Assembly: GCA_009927055.1 (NCBI GenBank)
Contig: RFNS01000301.1
Location: 1 to 49,357 of the forward strand
Direction: 5' to 3'
Origin: Alphaproteobacteria bacterium
GTDB taxonomy: Bacteria > Pseudomonadota > Alphaproteobacteria > UBA9219 > RFNS01
Length of the DNA: 49,357 bases
Both the position numbers and the translations under genes were made by a program. Positions 33,001 to 36,871 of the stretch are shown here, piece by piece (position 1 is the stretch's first letter; the number at the start of each line of letters is the position of its first letter). The notes under the pieces were generated by a model, which made no database searches, had not been told where the DNA came from, and saw only the letters and a list, made by a program, of their open reading frames with translations.

Positions 33001-33444
33001 CTATTTCCCTGTCGGCAGCTCGGCCACCAAGGCAACTTTTTTATAGCCCGCCGATGACACCGCCCCCATCACCTCCATAATCCGGCCATAGGCCAGGCGC
33101 TGATCGCCCCGCACAAAAATGCGCGCATCGGGATTGGCGCCCACAATGGCCTGAAGGCGCGGCACCAGTTCTTCCAGTTTCAATTTTTTTTCCTGCAAAT
33201 ACACATCGCCATTGCGTGTGATGCTGATGACCAGCGGCTCTTTATCTTGGCTGGCCGATTTGGCCTGCGTGCGCGGCAGATCGACCGGCACAGACACCGT
33301 AAGCAGCGGCGCCGTGACCATAAACACAATCAGCAGCACCAGCATAACGTCGACCAGCGGGGTCACGTTAATTTCAGGATTACGCCGCCACGACCGCCGC
33401 GAGACACGACTGTGTGTTGACATGTTTTGTGATGCGCCGCCCAT
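33001..33444 (-). CDS. tolR: Tol-Pal proton-channel subunit TolR
   Basis: ExbD/TolR-family protein, 147 aa. A cytoplasmic Arg-rich N-terminus (SRVSRRSWRRNPEINVTPL) is followed by the single helix VDVMLVLLIVFMVTAPLL, with the essential proton-path Asp at residue 32. The periplasmic domain includes DLPRTQA and PLVISITRNGDVYL. AAGGG lies ahead of the ATG. Its usual upstream neighbour tolQ is separated from it here by a brnTA toxin-antitoxin module, 30 bases from the brnA stop, so tolR and tolA must be read through that module or from an internal promoter. Confidence 0.95.
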   Translation of the reverse strand: MGGASQNMSTHSRVSRRSWRRNPEINVTPLVDVMLVLLIVFMVTAPLLTVSVPVDLPRTQAKSASQDKEPLVISITRNGDVYLQEKKLKLEELVPRLQAIVGANPDARIFVRGDQRLAYGRIMEVMGAVSSAGYKKVALVAELPTGK

Positions 33445-33474: not shown

Positions 33475-33765
33475 TTAGCCCTGAAGCGATTGCACAATCG
33501 CCTTTAATGTATCATCGATGCGTGTCTGCCACCCTGCCCCTCGCGCTTTATAAAAAGCAATCACTTCGGGCGAGAGGCGGATGCTGACCGCACGCTTGCC
33601 CGCCTGGCCTTTGGCCGCACGCTTGCGCCTGTAGGCGGCCACCAGCTGCGGCACCACCTCGTGCGCGGGACGCATGCGGGCAAGCTGCTTCTTGGTCATA
33701 GGCGGGCTATCAACCGAATCCCAGTCTTCCTGGCTGATCCAATCAGGCTTTTTGATTTTTTTCAT
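33475..33765 (-). CDS. brnA: BrnA-family antitoxin (module 1)
   Basis: Ribbon-helix-helix antitoxin, 96 aa. The N-terminal part (KKPDWISQEDWDSVDSPP) is typical of BrnA, and the C-terminal part (KRAVSIRLSPEVIAFYKARG, then GWQTRIDDTLKAIVQSL) is the RHH DNA-binding domain. A GAAAGGG lies before the ATG at 33765. The start overlaps the end of brnT by 23 bases, so translation is coupled. It is expected to neutralise the toxin and repress the shared promoter through the palindrome at 34018-34035. The module interrupts the tolQ-tolR junction. Confidence 0.9.
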   Translation of the reverse strand: MKKIKKPDWISQEDWDSVDSPPMTKKQLARMRPAHEVVPQLVAAYRRKRAAKGQAGKRAVSIRLSPEVIAFYKARGAGWQTRIDDTLKAIVQSLQG

Positions 33766-34018
33766 ACGCGGCCCTTTCTCGATCGTTCGCTTTTCTTAAA
33801 CTAATCAGCCGCACCGTATCGTCGCGGTGGGTGAATACAAGCTTCATTAAGCGTCCGCGAATATAACCAAGGGCTGTCTGTCGCTGCTCGCCATAATCGT
33901 GACGTTCATCAACCTCCAGCATCGCGGTGGCCCAATCAAAATCATCAGCCTCTTGGAAGCTGAGGCCATGTTTGGCCCAGTTCGCCATGTTTTTCTTGTC
34001 ATCCCACTCGCACCTCAT
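33743..34018 (-). CDS. brnT: BrnT-family toxin (module 1)
   Basis: RNase-like toxin of the BrnT family, 91 aa. Conserved features: CEWDDKKNMANWAKHGLSF at the start (WD..KN..N..KHG.SF), then DERHDYGEQRQTALGYIRGRL, and the C-terminal LISLRKANDRERAAYE, where Arg and Glu residues form the presumed active site. The ATG at 34018 is the innermost base triplet of a perfect palindrome, and no ribosome site is visible, suggesting a leaderless start. It is transcribed in the same direction as the surrounding tol genes, 41 bases after tolQ. It is clearly related to the second module's toxin at 36343. Confidence 0.9.
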   Translation of the reverse strand: MRCEWDDKKNMANWAKHGLSFQEADDFDWATAMLEVDERHDYGEQRQTALGYIRGRLMKLVFTHRDDTVRLISLRKANDRERAAYEKNQKA

Positions 34019-34050
34019 TTATGTATATACATAAAACAGAGGAAAGTCAA
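34018..34050 (-). promoter_or_regulatory. brnTA (module 1) promoter and palindromic operator
   Basis: On the minus strand, TTGACT (34050-34045) and TATACA (34027-34022) are separated by exactly 17 bases. A perfect 18-bp palindrome TTTATGTATATACATAAA (34018-34035) covers the -10 box and reaches the first base of the brnT start codon. This fits autoregulation by BrnA. The predicted transcription start is within a few bases of the ATG. It also offers a way for tolR-tolA to be transcribed from a promoter internal to the tol cluster. Confidence 0.6.
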
Positions 34051-34059
34051 GCCCTTTCA

Positions 34060-34800
34060 TCACGCCACCAGCTTCTGTTCTTCAAGGTTGCGCGACAGCA
34101 GCGATGAAAAATCGGCCGCGAAATTATCCAGCCGTTCGTTATATTTGCCCAGATCAGAGGCGAATTTGTTATAGGCCGCCGTGGCAGGAATAGCCGCCAC
34201 AAGACCAATGGCGGTGGCCAGCAACGCCTCGGCAATGCCGGGGGCCACAACAGCCAGCGATGTATTTTGCGCGGCGGCAATGCCAATAAAGCTGCGCATA
34301 ATGCCCCACACCGTGCCAAAGAGGCCAATAAACGGCGCGACCGACCCCACGCTGGCCAAAAACGTCATCCAGCTTTCAATCTGTGTCATCTCGCGGCCAA
34401 TGGTCACCTGCATCACCCTGTCGATGCGCGACAGCAGGTTGTTGCGGCCATTATGTGTGGCCAGCAAGCCCTTTTCAGCCGCCGATCGCCATTCCTTCAT
34501 GCCGGCCACAAACACGGCCTGCATCGGATCGTTCGGGCGTTTTGAAATTTTTTCGTACATTTGCTCCAGCGAGGCGCCCGACCAAAAACGATCTTCAAAA
34601 TACGTGGCGCGACGATTAAGCCGCGACATGCGCATCCACTTATCAAAAATGACGGCCCAGGTGATGACCGAAATGATGAGCAACCCAAAAATCACCGACT
34701 TGCCCACCAAATCGGCGTGCATGAACAGCCCCCACAGCGACATATCGGTGGCGGCCTGGCCGCCGGCCAGCTTAATGGCTTCGATGGTTGTTTCTTCCAT
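34060..34800 (-). CDS. tolQ: Tol-Pal motor subunit TolQ
   Basis: MotA/TolQ/ExbB-family inner-membrane protein, 246 aa. Helix 1 is VIFGLLIISVITWAVIFDKW near residues 35-55, followed by a cytoplasmic loop. The conserved block then reads MTFLASVGSVAPFIGLFGTVWGIM (helix 2), with APGIAEALLATAIGLVAAIPATAAYN (helix 3). With TolR it forms the proton-driven motor that energises TolA during cell constriction. ybgC ends nine bases upstream. Downstream it is followed not by tolR but by the brnTA module. Confidence 0.95.
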   Translation of the reverse strand: MEETTIEAIKLAGGQAATDMSLWGLFMHADLVGKSVIFGLLIISVITWAVIFDKWMRMSRLNRRATYFEDRFWSGASLEQMYEKISKRPNDPMQAVFVAGMKEWRSAAEKGLLATHNGRNNLLSRIDRVMQVTIGREMTQIESWMTFLASVGSVAPFIGLFGTVWGIMRSFIGIAAAQNTSLAVVAPGIAEALLATAIGLVAAIPATAAYNKFASDLGKYNERLDNFAADFSSLLSRNLEEQKLVA

Positions 34801-36342: not shown

Positions 36343-36660
36343 GTGTCGATCACGCAACTTGGATGGGACGAAGCAAAAAATCTGCGCAATGCCCTGAAGC
36401 ATAGTGTAAACTTTCTGGCCATGAAGGATTTTGACTGGCACAGCGTTCTTGAATCGACCGATGATAGAAATAATTATGGAGAAACAAGATACACCGCCAT
36501 CGGTTACTTGAAGGACAGGCTGCATGTGTGTATTTATACCGAAAGAAAAGGTTTGAGGCGCATAATCAGCCTGAGAAAAGCCAACGCACGTGAGAGGAGG
36601 CTGTATGAAGAAAAAACCCAAAAAACGCGCGGCAAGCAAAAAAACCGCATTGACGAATAG
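36343..36660 (+). CDS. brnT: BrnT-family toxin (module 2)
   Basis: Paralogue of the module 1 toxin: GWDEAKNLRNALKHSVNF, DDRNNYGETRYTAIGYLKDRL and RIISLRKANARERRLYEE match position by position. At 105 aa it has a slightly longer lysine-rich C-terminus. The only plausible start is the GTG at 36343, because the codon immediately before it in frame is a stop (TAA). No ribosome site is visible; a TATTAA (36337-36342) abuts the GTG and could be a -10 box, but no convincing -35 is found. The module lies between ruvA and ruvB, antisense to both. Confidence 0.85.
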   Translation: MSITQLGWDEAKNLRNALKHSVNFLAMKDFDWHSVLESTDDRNNYGETRYTAIGYLKDRLHVCIYTERKGLRRIISLRKANARERRLYEEKTQKTRGKQKNRIDE

Positions 36661-36871
36661 TGTCATTGATTCTGAAAGTCCCGAACTCGATCGTGCATGG
36701 TTTTCGCGCGCTAAGCGCATGTCGCAAAAACGACGCGCTGCCGCCGTGGAGATGCCCGCACGATATATCCCCCTCGATTCCGACGTGCTGAAATTTTTTG
36801 AACGTGGCACAGGCAATGTCGCCTTGCGTGTGAATAAAACATTGCGCGCCATAATCGACGCTGTGAAATAA
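36605..36871 (+). CDS. brnA: BrnA-family antitoxin (module 2)
   Basis: 88-aa ribbon-helix-helix antitoxin. The N-terminus is strongly basic (MKKKPKKRAASKK), the middle has WFSRAKRMSQKRRAAAVEMP, and the C-terminal RHH region reads RYIPLDSDVLKFFERGTGN, then VALRVNKTLRAIIDAVK, comparable to module 1. GAGGAGG (36594-36600) lies four bases before the ATG; a GTG at 36590 in frame is less likely. It overlaps brnT by 56 bases, more than module 1. Its stop is seven bases from the convergent ruvA stop. Confidence 0.85.
   Translation: MKKKPKKRAASKKTALTNSVIDSESPELDRAWFSRAKRMSQKRRAAAVEMPARYIPLDSDVLKFFERGTGNVALRVNKTLRAIIDAVK

Follow-up and report, generated by a model that had tools for sequence, protein, structure and literature searches.

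In the window, by which we mean the whole stretch of 49,357 nt that was analysed, a BrnT-BrnA toxin-antitoxin pair is inserted between tolQ and tolR, with tolQ, brnT-brnA and tolR all on one strand (Table 1). Both members of the pair match their Pfam families above the cut-off, which bears out the identity given to this module (module 1) in a first-pass annotation. The antitoxin gene follows directly 3' of the toxin gene and, judging from the coordinates, overlaps it by 23 nt. The brnA-tolR gap measures 30 nt, and 41 nt separate the tolQ stop codon, which lies 9 nt upstream of the -35 box, from brnT. The tolQ-tolR gap amounts to 615 nt here, whereas across the order it ranges from -22 to 119 nt in the 28 other genomes with a tolQ match (33 were searched, and 29, the window genome included, had such a match). 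The best tolQ match outside the window genome, L222 in genome G001, has the gap of 119 nt, the widest of the 28. A BrnT match is absent from all three genomes of the same family that were searched. Furthermore, a scan of the window lists no terminator-like site in either the tolQ-brnT or the brnA-tolR gap, hence transcriptional read-through into and out of the module is expected.

Table 1. Genes and predicted control elements at the tolQ-brnT-brnA-tolR locus (window positions).
Feature	Position	Strand	Evidence or remark
tolQ, upstream neighbour	34060..34800	-	Pfam MotA_ExbB; orthologues across the order
-35 box TTGACT	34045..34050	-	sequence; TTGAC position non-random across brnT loci
perfect 18-bp palindrome TTTATGTATATACATAAA, likely BrnA operator	34018..34035	.	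sequence; same place in relatives
alternative -10 box TATATA	34024..34029	-	15-bp spacer; 5 nt to ATG; score 6.4 vs 8.9 for TATACA
-10 box TATACA, inside the palindrome	34022..34027	-	17-bp spacer; score 8.9
brnT toxin gene	33743..34018	-	ATG start; Pfam PF04365, E 1.5e-23, 83.3 bits (cut-off 34.5)
expected transcription start from TATACA	34014..34016	-	6-8 nt downstream, within codons 1-2
AAAGGG, ribosome-site-like, 6 nt before the brnA ATG	33772..33777	-	sequence; outside the strict rule
brnA antitoxin gene	33475..33765	-	Pfam PF14384, E 2.2e-21, 76.4 bits (cut-off 26.1)
tolR, downstream neighbour	33001..33444	-	Pfam ExbD

BrnT-BrnA is a type II toxin-antitoxin system in which the toxin is an RNase and BrnA binds DNA through a ribbon-helix-helix fold. 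By sequence, the solved structures nearest to the window BrnT are 7vd7 ('toxin') and 3u97 (BrnT), the latter with E 0.0056. A PDB sequence search with the window BrnA returned no match up to E 1, and its single-sequence model, with a mean pLDDT of 56, contains helices and no strand, being too poor for a fold call. The type II BrnT-BrnA system of Brucella abortus, whose toxin structure is 3U97, belongs to the same BrnT and BrnA families and has the toxin gene first, as in the window, yet the two BrnT proteins are of low sequence similarity.

The genome holds four brnT matches in total. A second brnT-brnA pair occupies positions 36343-36871 on the plus strand, opposite to module 1, between genes that by eye are ruvB-like and ruvA-like; its BrnT is 48% identical to that of module 1, its BrnA reaches 16.9 bits, under the Pfam cut-off of 26.1, and the palindrome is absent from it. 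Two further matches, L013 (G000:C107) and L072 (G000:C105), have different upstream regions.

Upstream of module 1, the arrangement originally described can be read directly from the sequence, i.e. TTGACT and TATACA at a spacing of 17 bp on the minus strand, and a palindrome that spans the -10 box and ends on the start codon, its last base being the A of the brnT ATG. TATACA is followed by the three nucleotides TAA and then by the ATG at 34018-34016; since this TAA is an in-frame stop directly 5' of the ATG, no longer brnT start exists. The description of the promoter as near-consensus suits the -35 box (5/6) and does not suit TATACA (4/6, the final T missing), on account of which a generic promoter scan leaves this promoter unlisted. 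Scored with E. coli promoter frequencies, to which all promoter scores here are relative, it reaches a z of ~1.7 (100 shuffles) to 2.2 (60 shuffles). Also in line with the first-pass annotation, none of AGGA, GGAG, GAGG and AGGT occurs 5-15 nt before the ATG.

Transcription usually starts ~7 nt past the -10 box, and in leaderless genes the -10 box ends ~5-9 nt before the start codon. With TATACA, the best -10 candidate, this distance is 3 nt, so that standard initiation would fall at 34016-34014, in the first or second codon; a distance of 5 nt is reached only through the weaker -10 box with the 15-bp spacer. As judged from this geometry, a leaderless start of the window brnT appears doubtful. 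The palindrome could also form a hairpin in RNA that reads through from tolQ into brnT, yet structure there does not exceed that of shuffled sequences (z -0.73), and an RNA hairpin was rejected as an explanation.

Seven perfect palindromes of even length reach 14 bp or more in the window; this one is the longest, and it is the sole match to itself there at up to 3 mismatches; elsewhere in the genome there is one site, at 3 mismatches. Perfect palindromes of at least 18 bp are expected at a mean of 0.375 per window (maximum 2, 40 first-order simulations), hence the length alone is not decisive. For the 42-nt stretch from the end of tolQ to the A of the ATG, the chance of such a palindrome is ~1.5e-4 by shuffling. 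Its 16-bp core, TTATGTATATACATAA, was found in one of the 385 genomes of the class draw, which is the window genome. It also lies 5' of brnT at L057, whose genome is of the same order and was not part of that draw. L057 reads AGTTATGTATATACATAACTT-ATG, and L058, L019 and L061 have comparable layouts, which supports the overlap of operator, promoter and start that had been claimed for the window. The core takes the same position 5' of brnT in L057 and L058, with variant forms in L019, L302 and L304.

These observations support the reading of the region as promoter and putative BrnA operator, which from the sequence we hold to be probable. We likewise consider it likely that the pair between tolQ and tolR forms an ordinary type II BrnT-BrnA module under autorepression. 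BrnA as a dimer, either by itself or together with BrnT, would bind the palindrome, cover the -10 box and the start region and thereby block RNA polymerase; upon degradation of BrnA the promoter would open, and brnT-brnA, probably together with tolR downstream, would be transcribed. In Brucella, the antitoxin is reported to bind its own promoter, with BrnA and the BrnTA complex both binding the brnTA promoter (PMC10714953), and the position of the window palindrome suggests the same here, which makes BrnA the natural candidate for its binder. The same source describes a BrnA-like antitoxin of Acidovorax citrulli which, with or without toxin, did not bind its promoter regions (PMC10714953).

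The three BrnA segments nearest to that of the window (L057, L019 and L058) come with operator regions that match the window's in 14, 13 and 14 of 14 positions, 14 being the best value among the 58 loci whose BrnA segment could be parsed, where L302 and L304 tie at 13; BrnT identity of the three to the window is ordinary (0.45-0.50). Across 60 loci, and with BrnT controlled, operator and BrnA segment showed no covariation, as 396 and 448 of 1000 permutations were at least as high at the two identity limits used; a 58-locus version in which some segments were misregistered was also null (236/1000). In the corrected 60-locus comparison, L019 and L058 are again top among the matches listed, the agreement being limited to the window's neighbourhood. 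Operator-region palindromes of many different sequences occur in the family (z >=2 in 53 of 146 brnT loci, compiled as described below), as expected if every BrnA has its own operator.

The palindrome core is found with a promoter elsewhere too, in at least 129 matches (at least 117 in genomes and 12 in all in viruses, duplicates included), four of which lie before brnT; the spacing is 12 in 30 of the at least 129 pattern matches listed, duplicates again included. Nine genes, seven of them in cyanobacterial records, carry TTGAC-N12-TATGTATATACATA-N4-ATG, in which the core lies over the -10 box as in the window and 35 nt separate TTGAC from ATG as in the brnT genes with leaderless layout (see below). 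The DNA-binding protein is an unrelated one, both of the two genes tested belonging to the MarR family, and the likeness is apparently convergent. As a design, both the site and its arrangement seem to be convergent, so that the palindrome sequence by itself does not point to one binding protein. L105, L140 and similar loci carry this same pattern, a convergent operator-promoter with leaderless spacing. Among 13 viral pattern matches, tblastn with the window BrnT, a single-protein search that reaches close relatives only, found no relative.

That some other regulator binds the palindrome, or that its perfection is partly a product of chance in AT-rich DNA, is nevertheless very unlikely in our view. 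The same core 5' of MarR-family genes, the number of perfect 18-bp palindromes expected per window and the null result for global operator-BrnA covariation all speak in its favour, whereas relatives whose BrnA segments resemble the window's show the same position over the brnT -10 box and the probability within the gap itself is small, as given above.

The spacing of promoter and start codon was compared across 146 brnT 5' regions. They were collected among relatives and in a class-wide draw, with two extra loci that have the core-promoter pattern, and were kept after 19 others had been dropped (8 in which no start lay within 25 codons, 6 with late HMM matches and 5 duplicates); at L065 two near-identical neighbours are both counted. 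The nearest ATG or GTG, else TTG, before the conserved E-W-D was taken as the brnT start. The controls were 343 gene starts, each the first ATG of a long open frame in the same and the tolQ stretches, a set which is uncurated and may weaken the control. TTGAC stands exactly 35 nt before the start in 17 of the 146 loci, where 0.14 are expected per position and no -10 box is assumed, and at 34-36 nt in 26 loci vs five of the control starts (Fisher 1.7e-10). When TTGAC is held fixed in these 26 loci, the mean -10 score is maximal at a spacing of 17 bp, ~6 nt from the ATG. TTGAC-17-(-10)-6-ATG is what a leaderless promoter is expected to look like, and it is plausible from the spacing that part of the brnT family is laid out in this way. 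Thus, the leaderless start proposed in the first-pass annotation is supported for part of the family, by virtue of the TTGAC peak at 35 nt, but not well supported for the window, where -10 box and ATG are too close.

Among the rest of the 146, more loci fit the 35-nt rule with looser boxes, some have long leaders and many are without a clear promoter. Of 12 plasmid-borne relatives from named organisms, fetched out of 665 matching plasmid records, only two had a TTG-type box 34-35 nt from the start, and in neither was it an exact TTGAC; in L324 and L326, looser boxes can be seen by eye ~36 nt from the start. Altogether, what looked like a single odd site becomes a partial rule, in which operator-like palindromes surround the -10 box and the toxin genes have the layout that is expected of leaderless, autorepressed ones outside mycobacteria. 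The window is an example of the exception to this rule, a small but real geometric puzzle in an ordinary module.

Indeed, the window, with 32 nt from TTGAC to the start, is one of 12 among the 146 loci in which this distance is 27-33 nt. Averaged over these compressed loci, the -10 score is highest with a 17-bp spacer (+2.59, vs -0.41 at 15 bp), and taken singly, seven of them score best at this spacing. L302 and L304 read TTATTGTATATACATTAA-ATG and TTAATGTATATACATTAA-ATG, respectively, both at 31 nt; in L017 the sequence TACAAT stands one nucleotide 5' of the ATG, and in L003 the -10 box overlaps it. On average, the promoter of such loci thus seems to be ordinary and the start codon to be shifted towards it, and with the -10 box at 17 bp transcription would be expected to initiate within the start codon or beyond it. 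Compressed promoters would then either have an unusually close start or a different -10 box, or yield no translatable toxin. Read-through from upstream was rejected as a general rule for this class, as an open frame in the same direction dominates upstream of 10 of 18 compressed vs 25 of 38 leaderless loci (assigned to classes by their best promoter score, each having 250 nt or more of upstream sequence), i.e. without enrichment; just upstream of L003, L017 and L302 there is no co-directional open frame of at least 80 codons.

A ribosome site by a strict rule precedes 10 of 41 window genes, 24 of 146 brnT genes and 74 of the 343 uncurated controls (brnT vs controls, Fisher p 0.22). Since most genes are without one by this rule, its absence before brnT is weak evidence. 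At the 57 loci where both genes are callable, a strict site stands before brnA in 28 and before brnT in 13; the window brnA has no such site. Some members of the family would have a toxin start positioned for a leaderless mRNA, while brnA more often carries a ribosome site, an arrangement that might favour the antitoxin. Caulobacter is reported to have 375 leaderless mRNAs, with translation about equal to that of other mRNAs (PMC4117421), which counts against a leaderless start keeping the toxin low, and S. meliloti has 171 that begin with AUG (PMC3616915). In M. tuberculosis, 32 of 37 toxin-antitoxin pairs with a primary start site lie on leaderless mRNAs (PMC3898074); those modules belong to a different phylum and their start sites were measured, whereas the window offers sequence geometry, and one that is 3 nt off. 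A published report of brnT as leaderless was not found in the open-licence literature searched.

How the toxin transcript of the window starts can be read in different ways. A truly leaderless brnT, with RNA that would begin at A34018 by way of TATATA and the 15-bp spacer or of a very short discriminator, has somewhat less than an even chance. It is consistent with the TTGAC peak in the relatives, with an ATG start that has no ribosome site and an in-frame TAA directly 5' of it, and with leaderless mRNAs being common in Caulobacter (PMC4117421) and present in S. meliloti (PMC3616915). However, the window spacing is 32 and not 35 nt, the stronger TATACA leaves 3 nt, and the alternative box is weaker both by its own score and in the mean of the compressed loci at 15 bp. 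Alternatively, the start codon may lie 5' of the transcription start, such that the mRNA from the module's own promoter would be without the toxin AUG and would give BrnA only, full-length toxin being made through tolQ read-through. This we regard as unlikely, even though the expected start at 34016-34014, the 12 loci with TTGAC at 27-33 nt whose mean -10 score peaks at 17 bp, and a tolQ end 9 nt from the -35 box with no terminator listed in between all point that way; against it, just seven of those 12 score best individually at 17 bp, the three loci without a co-directional upstream frame argue that read-through is not general, and the promoter boxes are predictions, so that a start few nucleotides off would restore the AUG. 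What probability these two readings leave belongs to other 5' ends.

More improbable still is the wider proposal that in a minority of brnTA modules, the window's included, the promoter has slid onto the toxin start, whereby their own transcripts would serve the antitoxin only and the toxin would need transcription from upstream, here from tolQ. If true, the module would be wired to the tol operon, with read-through giving toxin and the local promoter giving antidote and tolR.

Three close BrnT relatives (L034, L008 and L014) have TTGAC and palindrome-like DNA with no ATG, GTG or TTG after the -10 box, the start-codon position being ATC, ACC and ACG, respectively, and a brnT relative in Xenorhabdus kozodoii (L113) has the same promoter-palindrome and no in-frame start within 25 codons. 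In three plasmid records, the annotated brnT start lies too far 5' of the one that fits the conserved N-terminus, by 120 nt in Komagataeibacter saccharivorans (L324), 159 nt in Sphingobium fuliginis (L329) and 48 nt in L330; gene callers may overlook starts with short leaders or none.
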